Shown here piece after piece: positions 15,878 to 57,889 of a DNA stretch of 64,000 nt; positions within the stretch are counted from its first letter, which is position 1, and the number at the start of each line of letters is the position of its first letter. Both the position numbers and the translations under genes were made by a program. The stretch spans positions 1 through 64,000 of the forward strand of contig QHRU01000060.1 in assembly GCA_003220225.1 (NCBI GenBank), in the 5' to 3' direction. The notes below the pieces were generated by a model, which saw only the letters and a list, made by a program, of their open reading frames with translations, had not been told where the DNA came from and searched no databases. The DNA comes from Candidatus Rokuibacteriota bacterium. GTDB lineage: Bacteria; Methylomirabilota; Methylomirabilia; Rokubacteriales; CSP1-6.

Positions 15878-16195
15878 GTGCGCTGGCCTGCCGCGCTGCT
15901 GCTCGTCCTGATCGCGGCCCCGCCGGCGGCGCACGCGCAGCCCGCGCGCTGGCGTGGCACCGGCGTCGTCGTGGCCGTGCTGCCCGCGCCCTCCAGCCTG
16001 CACGCCACGCGTCCGGTGATCGTGCTCGACCACCAGCCCATCGCCGGGCTCATGGAGCAGCGCATGTCGATGCCGTTCATCGCGGCGTCCGCCGACCTCT
16101 TCCGCGGCATCAAGGCCGGCGACCACGTGGCCTTCGCGCTCGCCGAGACGCCGGACGCGCTGCTCGTGGTGAGCCTCGAGCGGCTCGGACCGTAA
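15878..16195 (+). CDS. CusF-like periplasmic copper-binding protein
   Basis: 105 residues from the GTG at 15878. A signal peptide (VRWPAALLLVLIAAPPAAHA) is followed by a small OB-like barrel resembling CusF/CopK-type metal chaperones: GTGVVVAVLPAPS, VIVLDHQPIAGLMEQRMSMP and FRGIKAGDHVAFAL. The His of DHQPIAG and the Met pair in MEQRMSMPF match the His/Met Cu(I) ligands of CusF. There is no neighbouring CusCBA efflux gene, so it may act alone. The family match is by motif only. It is followed immediately by the hairpin repeat 16200-16348. Confidence 0.7.
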   Translation: MRWPAALLLVLIAAPPAAHAQPARWRGTGVVVAVLPAPSSLHATRPVIVLDHQPIAGLMEQRMSMPFIAASADLFRGIKAGDHVAFALAETPDALLVVSLERLGP

Positions 16196-16199
16196 ACAT

Positions 16200-16348
16200 C
16201 GGGGGCCTCGAAGGGGCCCCCAAACCCCCCACGCTCGGAGCGCCCCGGCGAAGCCGTGGCGCTCGCCCATTGAAATGGGGGGCCCCGAAATGGCCCCCCA
16301 AACCCCCCACGCTCGGAGCGCCCCGGCGAAGCCGTGGCGCTCCTCGAA
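16200..16348. repeat. R1 hairpin repeat, two tandem units (convergent gene end)
   Basis: Two units, 16200-16265 and 16277-16348. Each has a GGGGGCC...GGCCCCC hairpin, a C-rich spacer, the constant ACGCTCGG box and a long second hairpin (stem GAGCGCC/GGCGCTC, then CGGC/GCCG, loop GAA). They fill the gap between the CusF-like gene and the convergent dehalogenase. The element starts 4 bases after the CusF-like stop. Relatives lie at 22423, 28920, 43507, 45405 and 48939. Confidence 0.85.
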
Positions 16349-22422: not shown

Positions 22423-22560
22423 TGATCGAGGCGCGCCACGGCTTTGCCGGGGCGCGACGAGCGTGGGGGGTGTGGGGGGCGCGTGATCGAGGAGCGCCAC
22501 GGGTTCCCCGGGGCGCGACGAACGCTGGGGGGTGTGGGGGGCCATTTCGGGGCCCCCCAC
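22423..22560. repeat. R1 hairpin repeat, two units, reverse orientation
   Basis: Two R1 units between ttdB and the convergent glycosyltransferase, ending 7 bases from the latter's stop codon. Hairpin stems are GGCGCGCC-type at 22430-22455 and GAGCGCC/GGCGC-type at 22490-22517. The GGGGGGCC/GGCCCCCC hairpin sits nearest the glycosyltransferase, so the element is oriented 5' to 3' with that gene. Confidence 0.8.
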
Positions 22561-22567
22561 CTAGTAG

Positions 22568-28086: not shown

Positions 28087-28982
28087 GCCGCCTGCTCGAC
28101 CGCCTGCAGCGCCTCTTTCCCGACGCCTCGCGCACGGCCATCCGCGGCTGGCTCGCGGCCGGGCGCGTGCGGGTGGACGGCGTCGTCGTCGGTCGCGGCG
28201 ACGCCGACGTTCCCGACGCCGCGCGCGTCACCCTCGGCGCGCCGGCGCCGTCGTTTCCCTCCGCGCTGCGGCTCGTGCACGAGGACGACGATCTGCTCGT
28301 CGTCGAAAAGCCGCCCGGCCTCCTCACCATCGGCACGGCGCGGGAGCGCGAGCGAACGCTCTACCGGCTGCTCTCCGACTACGTCCGCGCGACTCCTCAC
28401 CGGCGTGCCTCGCCGTCGGCGGCGGCTCGCACGGCCACACGACTGTTCATCGTCCACCGCCTGGATCGCGAGACCTCGGGACTTCTCGTGTTCGCGAAGT
28501 CGGCCGCGGTGAAGCGCGCGCTGCAGGCGCAGTTCGCCGCGCGCGCCGTCGAGCGCGGTTACGTGGCCGTGGTGGAGGGCCGCGTGCGCGACGATGCCGG
28601 CACGCTGCGCGACCGCATCGTCGAGGACCCGACGACGCTGCGCGTGCGGGCGGGACGCGGGGGTGGCCGCGAGGCGGTCACGGAGTACCGCGTGCGCGAG
28701 CGCCGTGCCCGCTCGACCGTGCTCGAGTTGCGCCTGCGTACCGGCCGGCGCGGCCAGATCCGCGCCCAGCTCGCGGCGCTCGGCCATCCGATCGTCGGCG
28801 ATCGCGCGTTCGGCGCGACCACCGATCCGGTGCGTCGCGTCTGCCTGCACGCCGCCGTGCTCGGCTTCACCGACGCGCGCGGCCGCGCCCAGCGATTCAC
28901 GAGCGCGCCGCCTACCTCATGGGGGGCCTCGATAGGGCCCCCCAAACCCCCCGACGCTCGGCGCGTCCCGGGAAACCCGTGA
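28083..28982 (+). CDS. RluA-family pseudouridine synthase with S4 domain; probable CTG start, repeat-derived tail
   Basis: About 299 residues. An S4 RNA-binding domain (SRLLDRLQRLFPDASRTAIR, then WLAAGRVRVDG) precedes the catalytic domain with DDDLLVVEKPPGLLTIGTA and catalytic Asp in FIVHRLDRETSGLLVFAKSA. The S4 domain is coding but lies before the first usual start codon (GTG 28167). The only candidate start that includes it is CTG at 28083, which overlaps the previous stop as CTGA. The last 20 or so residues (SWGASIGPPKPPDARRVPGN) are encoded by R1 repeat sequence, which also supplies the stop. It would isomerise uridines in rRNA or tRNA. Confidence 0.82.
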   Translation: MSRLLDRLQRLFPDASRTAIRGWLAAGRVRVDGVVVGRGDADVPDAARVTLGAPAPSFPSALRLVHEDDDLLVVEKPPGLLTIGTARERERTLYRLLSDYVRATPHRRASPSAAARTATRLFIVHRLDRETSGLLVFAKSAAVKRALQAQFAARAVERGYVAVVEGRVRDDAGTLRDRIVEDPTTLRVRAGRGGGREAVTEYRVRERRARSTVLELRLRTGRRGQIRAQLAALGHPIVGDRAFGATTDPVRRVCLHAAVLGFTDARGRAQRFTSAPPTSWGASIGPPKPPDARRVPGNP

Positions 28983-29060
28983 CGCGCCTCGAATTCGTCG
29001 GGCCCCCCAAACCCCCCGACGCTCGGCGCGTCCCGGGAAACCCGTGACGCGCCTCGAATT
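28920..29060. repeat. R1 hairpin repeat, two tandem units overlapping the rluA 3' end
   Basis: Two units with hairpin stems GGCGCGTC/GACGCGCC plus CGGG/CCCG and an AAA loop (about 28956-28989 and 29026-29054). The first unit lies inside the rluA reading frame. Compared with the 16200 copies both sides of the stem differ but still pair. Confidence 0.8.
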
Positions 29061-43491: not shown

Positions 43492-43506
43492 AGTAAGCTT
43501 CAAATA

Positions 43507-43574
43507 GAGGACCGCCACGGCTATGCCGGGGCGGTCCGAACGATGGGGGGGGTGGGGGCCATTTCGGGGCCCCC
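43507..43574. repeat. R1 hairpin repeat, one unit, abutting the ettA start
   Basis: Stem GGACCGCC (43509-43516) with GGCGGTCC (43530-43537), inner stem CGGC/GCCG, loop TAT, then a G-run and a GGGGCC/GGCCCC hairpin that ends 7 bases before the ettA ATG. The stem sequence differs on both sides from the other copies while keeping 12 pairs. It is oriented opposite to ettA. Confidence 0.8.
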
Positions 43575-45284: not shown

Positions 45285-45399
45285 CGCGAGCGGGGGCCGG
45301 GCCGCCCCCACTCGACCACGCAAATCGACGCTACGGTGCGCCTGTCATCGAGCACCGATTCCTAGCCGGATCCGACGCATTACCCGAAACACGGGTCTA
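45285..45399 (-). repeat. R2 element, third copy (minus strand, one arm displaced)
   Basis: Read on the minus strand, 45312-45399 matches the 88-nt R2 core found at 53967-54054 and 54185-54272, with about ten or more differences; the CCCGTGTTTCGGGT hairpin and GTCGATTTGCGTGGTCGA end are intact. One arm, 45285-45311, is present (GGGGGCCGGGCCGCCCCCAC). The other arm keeps only GTGGGGG before an R1 unit begins at 45405. Confidence 0.7.
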
Positions 45400-45404
45400 T
45401 GAAC

Positions 45405-45479
45405 GTGGGGGGCCCCGAAATGGCCCCCCACGCCCCCCAACGCTCGTCACGCCCCGGGGGACCCGGGGCGCTCCTCGAT
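45405..45479. repeat. R1 hairpin repeat, one unit, between ettA and a convergent gene
   Basis: A GGGGGGCC/GGCCCCCC hairpin, C-rich spacer, ACGCTCG box and a GCCCCGGG/CCCGGGGC hairpin with GGA loop, ending in CTCCTCGATCA. The final TCA is the complement of the stop codon of the minus-strand spermidine-synthase-like gene, so the repeat touches that stop. Confidence 0.8.
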
Positions 45480-46135
45480 CAGGCGGTGCGGGGACGCGAG
45501 GCGTAGATCAGGACGTTTTCGCCTTCGCGGCGGACGCGTTGGGTGCGGACGGAGTCGAAGCGGCGGCGGAGCATTCGGACGAGGGAGCCGGCGTCGCCGC
45601 GGCGATGGCGGTTGACGACGAGGGTGCCGTCCGCGGCGACCAGGGGCACCAGCGCCTCCACCACGGGGCGCGAGCGCTCCATGTCGGCGTAGGCGGCGTC
45701 CTCCATCACGAAGTCGAAGCGCCGGCCGGCAGCCTGCAGCGTCGCCGCCACCGTCTCGGCGTCGCCGCAGTAGAACTCCATCGGCCCGAGGTCGGCGAGG
45801 CCGAACCAGCGGCGCGCGACGTCGAGGATCACGGGATCGCGCTCGATCGCGGTCACGAGGCGCGGCGTCGTGCAGCGGTGGACGAGGTGGGCCTGCGTGC
45901 CGCCCCCGAGGCCGACCAGCAGCACGCTCGGCTCCGGCGGGAAGCGCACGGCCGCCACGCCCTGCCACCAGTACTCGCGCTCGATCGCCGACCAGTCGCC
46001 GTCGAGCGGATAGGCCGACAGGATGGCGCCCCTGACGATCAGCCGGCGCTCCTGCCGGTAGTCCACGACGCGGATCCGGCCCGAGATCGCCGACCAGCCC
46101 GTGTGCGCCGTGCTCGAGCGCCGCGCCCGTCTCAT
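45479..46135 (-). CDS. Spermidine-synthase-like SAM-dependent methyltransferase fold protein
   Basis: 218 residues. The nucleotide-binding loop SVLLVGLGGGTQAHLVHRC (about 70-88), acidic TAIERDPVILDVARRWF and GPMEFYCGDAETVAATLQ with DFVMEDAAYADMERSRP are those of spermidine synthase-like proteins, the last corresponding to the D-A-Y motif. It lacks the N-terminal strand domain of true SpeE, so a methyltransferase or aminopropyltransferase-like role is uncertain. It follows the SDR on the minus strand by 12 bases. Confidence 0.78.
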   Translation of the reverse strand: MRRARRSSTAHTGWSAISGRIRVVDYRQERRLIVRGAILSAYPLDGDWSAIEREYWWQGVAAVRFPPEPSVLLVGLGGGTQAHLVHRCTTPRLVTAIERDPVILDVARRWFGLADLGPMEFYCGDAETVAATLQAAGRRFDFVMEDAAYADMERSRPVVEALVPLVAADGTLVVNRHRRGDAGSLVRMLRRRFDSVRTQRVRREGENVLIYASRPRTA

Positions 46136-48808: not shown

Positions 48809-48938
48809 GCCAACCTCGATTCGCCCTTGGCGAGGGATTCACGCTTGGCGAGGGAAGAGGATTACCGTAGAGTGACAAAGTTTGCTCGCCTGGTGCTGTC
48901 CGGCCGCACGCGGATCTAATCGCCAGCGGTCGTGCGTC

Positions 48939-49174
48939 ATCGAGGAGCGCCCCGGGTTCCCCGGGGCGTTTTCCGAGCGTTTGGGGGCGCGTGACCGAGG
49001 AGCGCCCCGGGTCCCTCAGGGCGCTTCCGAGCGTTGGGGAGCGCGCCATCGAGGAGCGCCCCGGGTTCCCCGGGGCGCTTCCGAGCGTTGGGGAGCGCGC
49101 CATCGAGGAGCGCCCCGGGTTCCCCGGGGCGCTTCCGAGCGTTGGGGGGTATGGGGGGCCCTCGTGGCCCCCCA
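48939..49174. repeat. R1 hairpin repeat, four tandem units of about 52 bp
   Basis: Four near-identical units of hairpin stem GAGCGCCCCGGG/CCCGGGGCGCTT with loop TTC (one unit has CCCTCAGGG), each followed by CCGAGCGTTGGGG, ending in a GGGGGGCC/GGCCCCCC hairpin that lies next to the stop of the phospholipase D-like gene (49176). The rest of the gap, 48809-48938, shows no gene. Confidence 0.85.
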
Positions 49175-49175
49175 T

Positions 49176-50429
49176 CTACAACAGGTCGCGGATCGGCAGG
49201 GCCAGGGTCTCGAGCAGCCGGGCGGTGAGCCCGCGGCTCTTCCACTCCTTCAACGTCACCCGGCGCGAGTGAGCGATGTCGTCGGAGAAGACGCTCTCGA
49301 GCCGCTGCGCGACCCCGCGATTGTAGACGATGACGTTCAGCTCGTCGTTCACCGCGAACGAGCGGTTGTCGAGGTTGGTGCTCCCGATCGTCGCCCAGAT
49401 GCCGTCGATGACCATCGTCTTGCTGTGCAGCAGCGCCGGCAGGTACTCGTAGATCTCGATCCCCGCTCTCAGAAGATCGCCGAACTGGCGCCGGCTCGCC
49501 TGCCGCACGATGTTGTGGTCGATGGCGCCCGGGACCAGCACCAGCACGCGCACGCCGCGTCGCCGCGCGGCGAGCAGCGCGTCGCGCATCCGCTCGTCGA
49601 TCACGAAGTACGGATTGGTGATATGGATCGAGCGCTGCGCCGAGTTGACGGCGAGCAGGAAGGTCGTGTACATCGCGAAGCTGCCCGCCGCCGGCGAGCT
49701 CTTCACGACCTGCGCGTAGACCTCGCCGCTCCGCTCGATCGGCCGCGGAAAGTACGGCTCGCCGCCGAGCACGACGCCCGTCGCCTCCAGCCAGCTCTCG
49801 ACGAAGGCGGCCTGCAGGTATTCGACCGCCGGCCCCTGGATCCGAATGTCCGTGTCGCGCCAGTGGTGCTCGACGCGACCGTTGCCCATCCACTTGCCGC
49901 TCACGCCGGAGCCACCGGTGAAGCCGACGCGGCCGTCCACGACGAGGATCCGACGGTGGTTGCGGTTGCTGTAGCGGCGGAAGATGTACTGGGTCAGCGG
50001 GCGGAACCACGCCACGTGGCAGCCCGAGCGCGACATCGCGTCGGTGTACTCCTTGGGCATGCTCAACGCGCCGAACGCGTCGAGCAGGACGTTCACGCCG
50101 ATGCCCGCGCGGCAGCGCTCGGCCATCGCCTCGGCGAGGTCGCGGGCGACGGGGCCGTCCTCGTAAAAGTATTGCGCATAGGTGATCGTGTGTTGCGCGC
50201 CCCGGATCGCCTCCAGCATGGCGGGAAAGATCTGCTTGCCGTTCAGCAACAGGTCGGCCCGGTTGCCGCCCACGATCGGAGCCGCCGCGTAGGCCTCCAG
50301 GGTCGGGAAGAAGGAGGGCTCCCCCAGCGCCAGCGTCGGCAACACCATGTGGGGGTGGACGCGCGCGCAAGCCGACGTCAGGAAAAGAACAAGGAGCACC
50401 AGGAGCGGGAGCGATCGACGGCTCGACAT
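49176..50429 (-). CDS. Phospholipase D / cardiolipin synthase-like lipoprotein
   Basis: 417 residues from the ATG at 50429. A lipoprotein or anchor signal (SLPLLVLLVLFLTSACAR) precedes two PLD domains. The first active site reads NHRRILVVDGRVGFTGGSG (HxR in place of HxK, about 168); the second is canonical, LLHSKTMVIDGIWATIGSTN (HxKxxxxD, about 348). SxNxDxRS after it is the usual extension. It is likely to act on phospholipids, for example cardiolipin synthesis, at the outer face of the membrane. The Arg in motif one occurs in some family members. Confidence 0.87.
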   Translation of the reverse strand: MSSRRSLPLLVLLVLFLTSACARVHPHMVLPTLALGEPSFFPTLEAYAAAPIVGGNRADLLLNGKQIFPAMLEAIRGAQHTITYAQYFYEDGPVARDLAEAMAERCRAGIGVNVLLDAFGALSMPKEYTDAMSRSGCHVAWFRPLTQYIFRRYSNRNHRRILVVDGRVGFTGGSGVSGKWMGNGRVEHHWRDTDIRIQGPAVEYLQAAFVESWLEATGVVLGGEPYFPRPIERSGEVYAQVVKSSPAAGSFAMYTTFLLAVNSAQRSIHITNPYFVIDERMRDALLAARRRGVRVLVLVPGAIDHNIVRQASRRQFGDLLRAGIEIYEYLPALLHSKTMVIDGIWATIGSTNLDNRSFAVNDELNVIVYNRGVAQRLESVFSDDIAHSRRVTLKEWKSRGLTARLLETLALPIRDLL

Positions 50430-52423: not shown

Positions 52424-53902
52424 GTGAGCCGCGTGGCGTGCGTCTGGGTCGAGGCCTTCGCGGCGGCGGCCGCCGAGCGCGCGGAGCCCTCGCTGCGCGA
52501 GCGGCCGCTGGCTTTGGTCACGGGCGCCGCGCCCGCCACTCGCGTGGTGGAGGCCAACGCGGCGGCGCGCGAGCACGGTATTCGCGCGGGGATCCCCGAG
52601 GCGGAGGCGGTGGCGCGCTGCCCCCAGCTCGTCCGTCGTCCGGCGTCGGCGGCCTGCGCGGACGCGGCGCGCCGCGCGCTGCTCGACGCGTGCTACGGCG
52701 TTTCTCCCCGGCTGGAGGACGTCGCCCCGGGGCTCGTCCACGTCGACGTCGCTGGCCTCGGACGGCTGCTCGGCGGCGACGCCGCCGTCGCGGAGCGGCT
52801 GGGCCGCGCCGCGCGCGCGGTCGGCCTGCCCGCGCGCGTCGGTGTTGCGGGCACGCGCGCGGCCGGGCGCATCGCCGCACGCGCCGGGCTGGGTGTCATC
52901 ATTCCGGACGGCGAGGCCGACGCGCTGGCGCCGGTGCGGGTGGCGACGCTCGACTGGTCGGACGAGATCGCGCAGGCACTCGCGCGCTGGGGCGTGGCCA
53001 CGCTGGGAGAGCTCGCCCGGCTGCCCCGCGCCGCGTTGGCCGCCCGTCTCGGCTCGATGGGGCTCGTCGCCCACGATCTCGCGCGCGGGGTGGACGACCC
53101 GGCTCCGTGGACCTCATGGGCGCCGCCGCCGTTCTGGGAGGAGGCGCAGGAGCTCGACTGGGAGATCGACGCGCTCGGACCGCTCGTCACCGTGCTCGGG
53201 CGGGTCGTGGAGCGATTGACCGCGCGTCTGTCGGCCGCGTATCTCGTGGCCGACGCGCTCGAGCTGCGATTGGCCCTCGCCGGCGGCGGCCATCACGCGC
53301 GCACGCTCGCGCTGGCGTGCCCGATGGTCGCGCCCCGCCCGCTGTTGACGCTGCTCGAGCACGACCTCGGCGCGCGGCCGCCCCAGGGCGCCGTCACCGC
53401 GGTGGCGCTCCAGGCGAACGTCATTCCGTGCCGCGCGGTCGCCGGTGAGCTCGGGCGCGCGGCGCCGCCAGCGCAGCGCGACCTGGCCACGGTGCTCGCG
53501 CGGCTCGTCACGCTGGTGGGCGCCGATGGCGTCGGCGCCGTCGCGCTCACCGACTCGCACCGGCCCGACGCGTTCGTGCCGGCGCGGTTCGAGCCGAATC
53601 TCGTGCCGGAGACGGGCAGGGACACGGGCGACGCCGTGCTGGCGCTGCGTCGGCTGCGCCCCCCGCGTCGCGTGAGCGTGGCCACGGACGGCGAGCGCCG
53701 GCCCGCCGTCGTTTGCGGGGCCCTCGGGCCCGAGGCGCGCGTGATCGGATGCGCGGGGCCGTGGCGCGTGTCGGGCGAGTGGTGGGACGCCGGCGCCTGG
53801 GCGCGCGACGAGTGGGACGTGGCGCTCTCGGACGGCGCCGTGTGTCGGCTCGCGCGCGAGCTGCGTTCCGGTGAGTGGTACCTCGACGGCGTCTATGACT
53901 AG
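52424..53902 (+). CDS. imuB: ImuB: catalytically dead Y-family polymerase-like protein
   Basis: 492 residues from GTG 52424. A Y-family DNA polymerase fold is recognisable ([40 protein letters not shown]; a helix-hairpin-helix at [20 protein letters not shown]). The catalytic acids are missing: VWVEAF replaces the VDMDAFF motif and HVDVAGLGR replaces SIDE. This is the mark of ImuB, which serves as an adaptor between the beta clamp, ImuA and DnaE2. The C-terminal 150 residues form the ImuB-specific region. Two R2 elements separate it from dnaE2. Confidence 0.87.
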
Positions 53903-53937: not shown

Positions 53938-54083
53938 CGAGCGATGGGCACCGGGGCAGCCCCCGTGAGACCCGTGTTTCGGGTACTGCGTCGGACACGG
54001 CTGCGAATCGGTGCACGTTGACAGGCGCACCGTACTGTCGATTTGCGTGGTCGAACGGGGGCAGCCCCGGTGCCCATCGCTCG
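53938..54083. repeat. R2 element copy 1: 88-nt core flanked by 29-bp self-complementary arms
   Basis: Arms 53938-53966 and 54055-54083 pair at 28 of 29 positions. Between them lies an 88-nt core (53967-54054) beginning GAGACCCGTGTTTCGGGTAC, an internal hairpin, and ending GCGTGGTCGA. The core is nearly identical to copy 2 but the outer arms are different in sequence. Located in the imuB-dnaE2 gap. Confidence 0.85.
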
Positions 54084-54150
54084 CACCCCCGTCGGCCGAC
54101 CCCAGCCCCCACCACATTCATCGTCACCGCCGAGGCGATGTCGGGGCGCT

Positions 54151-54306
54151 GCGATCGGCGGGCGCGGCCGGCGGCAGCCCCCACGAGACCCGTGTTTCGG
54201 GTACTGCGTCGGACACGGCTGCGAATCGGTGCACGTCGACAGGCGCAACCCATCGTCGATTTGCGTGGTCGAGTGGGGGCTGCCGCCGGCCGTGCCCGCC
54301 GGTCGC
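54151..54306. repeat. R2 element copy 2: same 88-nt core, different 34-bp self-complementary arms
   Basis: Arms 54151-54184 and 54273-54306 pair at 32 of 34 positions; the core is 54185-54272. Only the innermost arm bases (GGCAGCCCCC and its complement) resemble copy 1. The element ends 10 bases before the dnaE2 ATG. Together the two copies occupy most of the 414-base imuB-dnaE2 gap, which holds no gene. Confidence 0.85.
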
Positions 54307-54316
54307 AGGCAGCGTG

Positions 54317-57300
54317 ATGTTCGTCGAGCTGCACGCGCAGTCGGCGTTCACGTTTCTCGAGGGCGCGGACCAGCCGGAGGCGCTGGTGGCGGAGGCGGCG
54401 CGGCGTGGCATGCCGGCGCTGGCGCTCGTGGACCGCGACGGCGTCTACGGCGCGCCGCGCTTCCATCGCGCCGCGGTCGACGCGGGCATCCGCCCGCTCG
54501 TCGGCAGCGAGCTGACGCTCGCCGGCGGCGCGCGGCTGCCCGTGCTGGTCGAGGATCGCGAGGGCTGGCAGAACCTCTGCCGGTTGATCACGCGCGCCAA
54601 GCTCGGCGCGCCCAAGGGCAAGGCCGCCCTCAGCCTCGAGGACCTCGAAGCCTCGGCGAACGGTCTCGTGTGCCTCACCGGCGGCGCGCGCGGGCCCCTC
54701 GCCGCCGCGGTGCGCGCGGGCGATCGCGACGCCGCGAGAGCGATCCTCGACCGGCTGGTCGGCATCTTCGGCCGCGCCAGCGTCTTCGTGGAGGTGCAGC
54801 GCCACTTCGACCGCGCGCAGGAGCGCGATCTCGAGCGGCTGGTGGCGCTGGCGCGCGCCGCGCGCGTGCCGCTCCTGGCCGCCAACCAGCCCCTCTACGC
54901 GCGCCCCGGCGGCCGCGCCGTGGCCGACGTCTTCACGTGCATCCGGGAGAAGACCGACCTCGATCACGCGGGCCGCCGGCTGCTGGCGAACGCCGAGCGC
55001 GGCCTGCGCGACGGCGCGGCGACGACGGCGGCGTTCCGCGACCTGCCCGAGGCCGTGGCCGCCGGCGGCGAGCTGGCGTTGCGCCTGGGCTTCACGCTCA
55101 AGGATCTCGGCTATCGCTTTCCCGACTTCCCGCTGCCGCCCGGCGAGAGCGTGCAGGCGCACCTGCGCGACCTCGTCGCGCGCGGCGTGCGCGCGCGATA
55201 CGGCGCCGCCGGCCCGCTCGTCGAGCGCGCGCGGCGGCAGGTCGCCCACGAGCTGGAGATCATCGGCCGGCTCGATCTCGCCGGCTACTTCCTCATCGTC
55301 TGGGACATCGTGGAGTTCTGCCGCGCCAACGACGTCCTCGTGCAGGGCCGCGGCTCCGCCGCCAACAGCGCGGTCTGCTATGCGCTCGGCATCACGGCCG
55401 TCGATCCGGTGAAGATGGAGCTGCTCTTCGAGCGTTTCCTCTCGGAGTCGCGCGGCGAGTGGCCGGACATCGACCTCGACCTGCCGAGCGGCGAGCGGCG
55501 CGAGACGGTCATCCAGTACGTGTACCGGCGCTACGGCCGGCTCGGCGCAGGGATGACGGCGAACGTCATCACGTACCGCGGGCGCAGCGCCGCCCGCGAA
55601 GTCGGCAAGGCGCTCGGGCTGCCCGGCGACATGCAGGACCGGCTCGCCGGGCTCGTCGAGAACTGGGGTTACCAGGATCCGCAGGCGGTGCTGACACGCC
55701 ACCTGCAGGAGGCGGGCTGCGACACGCGGCATCCGCGCATCCGCAAGTTCGCCGCCCTCTGGACGCGGCTTCAAGATCTCCCCCGGCATCTCGGCCAGCA
55801 CTCGGGCGGCATGGTCATCGCCGCCGGCCGACTCGACGACGTGGTGCCGCTCGAGCCGGCCACGATGCCGGGCCGCGTGGTCGTGCAGTGGGACAAGGAC
55901 GATTGCGCCGCGCTCGGCATCGTGAAGGTGGATCTTCTCGGTCTTCGGATGATGTCGGTGCTCCAGGAATCCATCGCGCTCGTGAGCGAGACGGGCGGGG
56001 TGGTCGACCTCGCGCACCTGCCCGCCGACGACAAGGCCGTGTACGGCATGCTCCAGCGCGCGGACACGATCGGCGTGTTCCAGGTGGAGAGCCGCGCCCA
56101 GATGGCGACGCTGCCGCGCATCCATCCCGAGCGTTTCTACGACCTCGTGGTGCAGATCGCCATCATCCGCCCGGGCCCGATCGTCGGCGACATGGTGCAT
56201 CCCTACGTCCGCCGCCGGCGCGGCCGCGAGCCGGTGACGTACGCCCACCCGAGCCTGGAGCCGATCCTGTCGCGCACGCTCGGCGTGCCGCTCTTCCAGG
56301 AGCAGCTGCTGCGCATCGCGATGGTGGCCGCGGGCTTCTCCGGCAGCGAGGCGGAGGAGCTGCGCCGCGCCTTCGGCTTCAAGCGCAGTGAGCGCCGGAT
56401 GGCGGAGGTGGAGGTGAAGCTGCGCGAGGGCATGGCGCGCCGGGGGATCACCGGCCGAGCCGCGGACGAGATCGTCCACCAGATCACGTCGTTCGCGCTG
56501 TATGGATTCCCCGAGTGCGTGGTGGGTGACACCCGCGTGCTCGACGCGGACAGCGGGCGGTGGGTACGGATCGAGGACGTCGTCAACGGTGTCGACCGCG
56601 TGGAGGCCACCCTGGCGTGCGACGAGGGCCGGACGCTGCGACGGCGCCGAGTGCTCCGCGCCACCGCCAGCGGTCGTCGCGGCGTCTATCGCCTGACGAC
56701 GCTGGGCGGACGGACGATCGTCGCCACCGCCGAGCATCTGCTGTTGACGCCCCAGGGCTGGCGACCGCTCGCCGCGCTGCGCGAGCGCGATCGTGTCGCG
56801 GGGGCCCGGCGCGGTGGCGGGAGCGCCGAGCTGGTCGACTCGAGCGTCGGGTGGGACAGCGTTGTCATCGTGGAGCGCGCCGGAGTGCGGGACACCTACG
56901 ACCTCGAGATCGAGGGCGACCACAACTTCCTCGCCAACGACCTGGTCGTCCACAACTCGCACAGCAGCAGCTTCGCGCTGCTCGCCTACGCCAGCGCGTA
57001 CCTCAAGGCGCACCACGGCCCGGCCTTCTACGCGGCGCTGCTCAACAACCAGCCCATGGGCTTCTACCACTCGGCCACCGTCGTCAACGACGCGCGCCGG
57101 CACGGCGTGCGCGTGCTGCCGGTGGACGTCACGCGCTCGAACTGGCCGTGCACGCTCGAGCAGCGCGAGGGCGTCTGGGTGGTGCGCCTCGGCCTCCGCT
57201 TCGTGAAGGGGCTGCGCGAGCGCGCGGGACAGGCGCTGGTGGCCGCGCGCGCGGCGCGGGCGTTCGCCTCTGCGCCCGACCTCGCCGCGCGCGCCGCTCT

Positions 57301-57889
57301 CACGCGCGAGGAGATGGCCACGCTCGCCTCGATCGGCGCGCTGGCGCCGCTGGGCGGCACGCGCCGCGCGAATCTCTGGACCGTCGCCGAGCAGGACGCG
57401 GGGCCCCTGTTCGCGGGAACGGTTGTCGCGCAGACGGAGCCACTCCGCACGACACGATCACCATTGCCTGAAATGACCGTGCTCGACAGGCTCACGGCCG
57501 ACTACGCCGGCACCGGCGTCACGCTTGGCCCGCACCCGATGGCGCTGCGGCGCGCGGCGCTCGCCGCGCGCGGCGTCACGCGGGCGATCGACCTCGCGCG
57601 CGGCGACGACGGCGCGCGTGTGCGGGTGGCGGGCAGCGTGATCGTGCGCCAGCGGCCCGGCACGGCGAAGGGCTTCGTGTTCCTGAGCCTCGAGGACGAG
57701 ACCGGGATCGCGAACGTCATCGTGACGCCGGGCCTCTTCGCGCGCCGGCGGCTGCCGCTCGTCAGCGAGCCGTTTTTGCTCGTGGAGGGGATCTTACAAA
57801 TGCAGGACGGCGTGGTGTCCGTGCGCGCCGCGCGCGTCGAGCCATTGCCGCGGCTCGCGCACGTCGTGCCCTCGCACGATTTCGGGTAA
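54317..57889 (+). CDS. dnaE2: Error-prone DNA polymerase DnaE2 with an in-frame mini-intein
   Basis: 1190 residues as translated; about 1043 after removing a 147-residue intein, normal for DnaE2. PHP domain N-terminus [20 protein letters not shown], and a palm with [17 protein letters not shown] (about 352) and the catalytic acids in [40 protein letters not shown] and [20 protein letters not shown] are typical DnaE2 segments. The C-terminal OB domain has [20 protein letters not shown]. It copies damaged DNA with ImuA/ImuB, causing mutation. ATG at 54317 lies right after R2 copy 2. The extein is interrupted between GFPE and [10 protein letters not shown]. Confidence 0.93.
56516..56956 (+). other. 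Mini-intein inside DnaE2 (147 residues, no homing endonuclease)
   Basis: Codons 734-880 of dnaE2. Block A starts with the nucleophile Cys: [20 protein letters not shown]. Block B has the TxxH motif in [19 protein letters not shown]. Block F is [20 protein letters not shown] and block G ends LVVHN, followed by Ser as the first C-extein residue. These are all the residues needed for splicing by N-S shift, Ser transesterification and Asn cyclisation. The penultimate His is present. No LAGLIDADG or HNH endonuclease lies between blocks B and F. It splits the conserved YGFPE/SHSSSFA site of the polymerase fingers. Confidence 0.9.

Follow-up and report, generated by a model that had tools for sequence, protein, structure and literature searches.

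A dispersed family of hairpin repeats with conserved heads and free stems at gene ends in Candidatus Rokubacteria

Between imuB, which ends at 53902, and dnaE2, whose ATG lies at 54317, a 64,000-nucleotide stretch of Candidatus Rokubacteriota DNA (henceforth the window) carries two long hairpins with nearly identical heads and dissimilar stems. Which kind of element keeps its stems paired while their sequences differ, and which strand of it folds? The first-pass annotation, which had correctly placed both copies in this interval, listed as candidates a structured RNA, a single-strand DNA hairpin of the cassette-recombination or retron type, and a MITE. The imuB product matches Y-family polymerase models and dnaE2 encodes an error-prone DNA polymerase; dnaE2 neighbours put the organism within Candidatus Rokubacteria, L047-L050 and L116 being the best relatives (70-83% identity). 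The DnaE2 protein (54317-57886) also contains an intein, of which NCBIfam models recognize the N-terminal region at residues 734-811 and the C-terminal region at residues 860-881.

Both hairpins are intact and are given here on the plus strand. In copy 1 (53938-54083), a G-rich left arm of 29 nt (53938-53966) pairs at 28 of its 29 positions, all of them Watson-Crick, with the C-rich right arm (54055-54083), and the arms enclose a head of 88 nt (53967-54054) bounded by the end boxes GAGACCCGT and GCGTGGTCGA; this head is conserved in about 45 copies in the same genome and in relatives. Copy 2 (54149-54308) has a head of exactly the same length (54185-54272), about 93% identical to that of copy 1. 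Its arms, initially described as 34 nt with 32 paired positions, do pair in that way and in full reach 36 nt (54149-54184 with 54273-54308; 34 Watson-Crick and 2 G.T pairs), the right arm stopping 8 nt before the dnaE2 ATG. As had been noticed, only about 10 inner bases (GGCAGCCCCC) are common to the arms of the two copies, and when arms were swapped between copies a pairing score of 12 was reached in only 4% of trials. Predicted RNA folding energies are -103 and -126 kcal/mol for copies 1 and 2, respectively, and a hairpin scan of the full 64 kb window returned these two long hairpins only.

A damaged third copy lies on the minus strand at approximately 45285-45430 (head 45312-45398), where the covariance model matches 45292-45428 with 104.5 bits. 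One original arm remains, while the opposite side is fused to a second repeat family. In G066, the orthologous site holds an intact element with 34-bp arms; in five other genomes the site is empty. The second family, itself dispersed, consists of repeats of about 75-85 nt (GTGGGGGGCCCC...CGCTCGGAAGCGCCCCGGGGAACCCGGGGCGCTCCTCGATCA) at 45400-45484, where it adjoins the damaged copy, and at 22482-22562, 16194-16348, 28918-29059, 43501-43574 and 48937-49179, the last in tandem, and has many BLAST matches in G001, G002, G006, G007 and G066. A weak covariance-model match at 28964-29049 (22 bits) falls inside this second family and was left out of the copy count.

The two copies first seen are real and beyond chance, and they belong to a larger set, spread through a whole family, that has three types of head and lies at gene ends. 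BLAST and an iterated profile search recovered about 45 distinct copies in the same genome (6.03 Mb, 167 contigs), most of which have pairing arms; neither of the outcomes named beforehand as fatal to the initial description, namely non-pairing flanks in further copies or local duplication of imuB-dnaE2 sequence, agrees with this distribution. Tandem arrays occur at C96:96942-97576 (5 units of 136 bp) and C136:55930-56670 (6 units of 130 bp). In the C136 array (L023:6931-7669), the stretch between heads is a 41-nt palindrome, so that a right arm can pair either with its own left arm or with that of the next unit.

When the class was searched with a covariance model, as had been proposed, 24 of the 95 genomes proved to contain copies, and all 24 belong to the family of the window. 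Likewise, the pattern GAGACCCGT-N55-80-GCGTGGTCGA occurs in 27 of the 95, all belonging to one family of Candidatus Rokubacteria and with at most 26 matches per genome, and the reversed control pattern of the end boxes gave 0 matches in the same 95 genomes. Outside the genus, conservation is limited to the head ends, between which three types of head are found. Class I heads (88-92 nt) occur in the genus of the window and a few others, class II heads (75-81 nt) read ...CTTCTGGG...GCTAGCG... with a variable interior, and class III heads (90-93 nt) read GAGACCCGTTCCC...GATGGAGCCCAGCCGC.... Conserved boxes with single-base bulges enclose a variable interior of nearly fixed length. No common interior helices were found in class I or class II heads, and class II interiors show neither common sequence nor a clear common fold. 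The arms outside the end boxes measure 20 to more than 45 bp and are dissimilar between loci; those of class III can surpass 40 nearly perfect base pairs.

A gene-carrying, autonomous version was not encountered: downstream of each left-box match examined, a right box stood 75-92 nt away, or else the match was truncated. A phage or plasmid origin was considered and rejected, as blastn gave no match in phages or plasmids and six IMG/VR pattern matches lack arms and look like chance. No Rfam family matched in the window, and a permissive search of five loci yielded only sub-threshold microRNA-hairpin matches. A limited search of the open literature turned up no account of repeats like these in Rokubacteria; apparently, this family of repeats in soil bacteria has not been described previously.

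To what extent the fold is conserved was evaluated on 40 aligned copies, using a helix model composed of 25 arm pairs, GACC/GGTC, and CGTG/TGCG with a bulged T. In these copies, 97.2% of cells are paired and both sides have changed in 27 of the 33 pairs. Two-sided changes affect 298 cells versus 86 in shuffles, with 0 of 500 shuffles reaching 298, and the covariation score is 0.656, compared with 0.159 in shuffles and at most 0.127 for slid structures. Together with compensatory changes between orthologues, this supports the original proposal that structure rather than sequence is conserved. The head is closed by GACC/GGTC, followed by CG/CG with a bulged T, and is stacked on a tandem G.A step and the outer stem. 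In copy 1, GACC at 53969-53972 pairs with GGTC at 54049-54052 after the G.A/G.A step. Between the arms and the basal helix, the tandem step is GA/GA in 82 of 109 copies and Watson-Crick in most others (GC/GC, GA/TC, TA/TA, AA/TT, GG/CC, CA/TG). In relatives, A-T to G-C and C-G to G-C changes affect both sides of the basal helix. The ACCCG/CGGGT hairpin initially proposed within the core is not supported, as its CGGGT side remains unchanged where ACCC becomes AGCC or GGCC. Instead, the GGTC near the 3' end changes (GAGGGCC...GCCCGA, GAGAGCC...GCTCGA), indicating that the head is closed at its base by GACC and GGTC pairing with each other.

The arms, on the other hand, are free to differ between loci: outer arms at different loci have a likeness of 0.67, versus 0.64 for shuffled arms, regardless of head likeness. 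Orthologous copies mostly retain recognizable arms. Among copies with alignable arms, 60 ortholog arm positions carry two-sided changes that keep pairing and 26 carry one-sided changes that keep it, while pairing is broken by a one-sided change at 19 positions and by a two-sided change at 1. Matched insertions are found in both arms of orthologues (L021/L243, L025/L245). The maintenance of pairing by compensatory changes indicates that arms are either constrained in place or rewritten by template switching. Orthologous heads differ from each other roughly to the degree that paralogous heads do; the likeness of heads is therefore saturated and cannot date copies. Arms made afresh at each transposition, to which unrelated arms behind 90-95% identical heads had pointed, are conceivable but no longer needed as an explanation.

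Template switching between arms, that is, quasi-palindrome correction, would keep a neutral palindromic repeat paired and so mimic covariation. Correction of this kind typically produces matched insertions in both arms, and the arms are very long and perfect (duplex up to -105 kcal/mol). The process gives no reason, however, for G.T mismatches to be preferred over A.C, and such a preference is what the copies show. Among copies found by head sequence alone and scored without favouring G.T, G.T/T.G pairs number 53 versus 12 A.C/C.A (p about 1e-7), and counted by element the ratio is 25 to 2. Over all copies, the strand reading GAGACCC has 158 G.T versus 55 A.C, a count in which part of the non-genus set came through the covariance model, which possibly favours G.T, while the genus set did not. 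The ratio of about 3:1 to 4:1 on one strand has the same sign in every gene context with enough copies: 58:11 where elements are antisense to both neighbours, 58:20 in convergent and 25:11 in sense contexts. Template switching moreover leaves unexplained the conserved head, the exchanges of tandem G.A for Watson-Crick steps and the gene-end placement, and we consider it unlikely.

As the excess of wobble pairs holds even where elements are antisense to both neighbours, it is the element that determines which strand folds, not the direction in which its neighbours are transcribed. Stems that change in sequence yet stay paired likewise point to selection for the folding of one particular strand. 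That the GAGACCC strand is constrained to fold can be stated with high confidence. The tolerance of G.T is best matched by RNA, although a folded DNA strand would also accept G.T better than A.C. Of the two, RNA is the likelier folded single strand; that the strand actually acts as RNA, to judge from sequence, has a probability that we put just short of even.

The copies lie close to gene 3' ends. Among the 115 that could be placed, 53 stand between convergent genes, 41 are antisense to two co-directional neighbours, 20 are in sense and 1 is between divergent genes. Gene ends were taken from a simple codon-usage caller written for the analysis, and distances are therefore approximate: from the right arm to the next gene boundary the median is 9-18 nt, whereas the gap at the left arm is 35-98 nt. 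The 3' arm usually lies about 20 nt or less from the next gene boundary, and in most cases this boundary is the stop codon of a gene on the opposite strand. Where the context is sense, in 20 cases that include the window, a start codon follows within a few nucleotides of the end of the element. Copies are mostly single or paired, and some adjoin core genes, rpoA among them.

An intrinsic (Rho-independent) terminator, or the terminator of a small RNA gene, would suit placement at gene ends, and short ordinary hairpins stand in G001 and G002 in place of two elements of the own genome beside rpoA. Nevertheless, no T-tract was found on either strand (T amounts to 13-18% downstream of the right arm, and A is not enriched upstream) and no sigma-70 promoter signal upstream of the left arm. 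Moreover, the 20 sense copies, including copy 2 (E2) at dnaE2, stand directly before a start codon, and the stem closes only after about 150 nt. We regard this explanation as very improbable.

Element-free sites occur in relatives of the same genus whose flanks are about 82-92% identical. The own-genome site L022:3165 corresponds to a 10-nt gap in G002, and L022:7447 to 13 nt in G002, while in G001 it is occupied by an element with other arms. The site L021:3944/4137, between the LL-diaminopimelate aminotransferase gene and rpoA, is the one with short ordinary hairpins in G001 and G002. Comparison with element-free orthologous loci, another check proposed at the outset, thus revealed empty sites with unalignable gaps of 10-20 nt and no detectable target duplication; flanking direct repeats are not in excess over mismatched flanks, duplications of 2-5 bp lying below detection. 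The idea that heads were inserted into pre-existing terminator hairpins was dropped: three element-free sites are such 10-20 nt gaps, the hairpins at one empty site differ in sequence, and the window contains no further long hairpin. As a separate observation, one own-genome element site holds in L167 (G007:C127:34489-34629) an unrelated insert flanked by the gene-end direct repeat GCGCTCACGACAGCCACC (18 bp).

At the imuB-dnaE2 locus itself, the spacing is 4-8 nt in G066 and G006, and G001 has another element. G002 (L158, G002:C684:6697-6809) has arms homologous to those of copy 1 around an inverted and truncated head, and arm-to-arm recombination could flip heads. In another Rokubacterium, the imuB-dnaE2 interval contains a different hairpin (L048:3765-3997) with 39-nt arms and a 155-nt head without GAGACCC boxes; a minimal element with a 25-nt head is present on the opposite strand at L048:3403-3477.

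Presence/absence polymorphism, tandem arrays and the inversion of a head between homologous arms (imuB-dnaE2, G002) are what would be expected of a single-strand DNA hairpin that serves as a recombination site or as a mobile site without enzymes of its own: during replication the GAGACCC strand would fold and be recognized in trans by a recombinase or nuclease. Strand choice might then come from the end boxes and the bulged bases, by analogy with the extrahelical bases of attC sites. A wobble bias on one strand regardless of transcription direction, bulge-bearing conserved boxes around an interior of nearly fixed length, and the lack of detectable target duplications and of a promoter signal all agree with such a site. 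Yet no candidate enzyme was found, since the own genome has no Y1 transposase and nearly all genomes with the element lack one too, and the left-box matches examined include no gene-carrying version. In addition, copies that have not moved since speciation still have paired arms, a state that mobility by itself would not preserve. The DNA hairpin is nearly as good a reading as the preferred one, the missing enzyme and the constraint on copies that stayed in place being its weak points, and we rate it as less likely than not. From the original list of candidates, a structured RNA and a single-strand DNA hairpin are therefore supported, given the single folded strand in the wobble test, while the sequence boxes give no support to the retron or integron type, and a MITE with target duplications finds none either.

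As the best reading, which is held tentatively and falls somewhat below an even chance, both copies belong to a repeat that is dispersed, specific to one family of Candidatus Rokubacteria and works as a folded single strand, REP-like but inside-out, with a conserved head and a free stem. Selection would act on RNA from the GAGACCC strand, the head, in three types on one base, may be bound by a host or mobilizing factor, and the element could behave like a REP, forming at gene ends a structure for transcript ends or mRNA processing that is either tolerated or put to use. Spread through a single-strand intermediate would fit the apparent absence of target duplications and of a gene-carrying version. 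Against this reading, neither a promoter signal upstream of the left arm nor a T-tract after the right arm points to transcription of the GAGACCC strand where it is antisense to both neighbours, the 20 sense copies stop just before a start codon, a poor position for a terminator, and class II interiors have no common sequence or clear fold.

Bacterial palindromic repeats have usually been approached via conserved stems. In the present family, conservation lies in the head while the stem varies freely, so that one genome holds dozens of natural compensatory mutants, with which the question of RNA or DNA action by intergenic palindromes can be approached. Which strand folds can be read directly from the strand-specific wobble bias, a test that can be used again elsewhere, and the bias suggests a binding factor or a mobilizer in Rokubacteria.

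Among known systems, integron attC sites offer an analogy. In these sites too (PMC2727003, PMC3053210), a single strand folds and carries bulged bases, structure is kept over sequence and one strand is used, and the site follows directly after a stop codon, with the functional strand antisense to that gene. The present elements differ in having neither attC boxes nor a cassette array, in neighbouring core genes (rpoA) and in carrying their conserved boxes inside long outer arms. The attC consensus has R boxes, RYYYAAC and GTTRRRY, at its two ends; none was found in the invariant columns of A1 or in the variable outer arms. MITE-like repeats such as ERIC and Correia (PMC2229807) are similarly short, non-coding, multi-copy and present or absent between relatives, whereas arms here are not conserved terminal repeats and give no target-duplication signal. 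With outer arms no more alike than shuffled ones, the conserved terminal inverted repeats of DDE-type MITEs are likewise lacking.

With the structured RNAs of Rfam, the elements share a covarying helix, conserved end boxes and one-strand tolerance of G.U, and they do show compensatory base-pair changes on one strand; they differ in their dispersed copy number and in having no promoter signal and no matching family. REPs and BIMEs are also dispersed extragenic palindromes, with tens to thousands per genome and mostly in convergent or co-directional contexts (PMC3733652). Most convergent REPs lie less than 20 bp from the 3' end of one ORF and at a varying distance from the other, and REPs have stems of 5-13 bp with frequent G.T pairs, loops of 2-20 nt and a GTAG or CGTC tag (PMC3733652). 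The present repeats are likewise extragenic and near gene 3' ends, with 1 of 115 divergent, but it is the head (75-93 nt) that is conserved and the stem (20 to more than 45 bp) that is free. A GTAG/CGTC tag beside a 5-13 bp stem is absent, and the head boxes GAGACCCGT/GCGTGGTCGA are found instead. The Y1 (RAYT) transposase PF01797 is missing from G000-G002 and from nearly all element-bearing genomes, and is present elsewhere in the class; CGTC REPs also lack a Y1 transposase, so its absence alone weighs little. It is possible, though less likely than not, that the elements form a class of their own, categorically new: transmissible hairpins in which a single conserved base motif carries three different heads, with stems free in sequence but kept paired on one strand at each site, serving as a gene-end device of one family and spreading as single-strand RNA or DNA. 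We file the repeats among the intergenic palindromic repeats, with a real chance that they form a new class.
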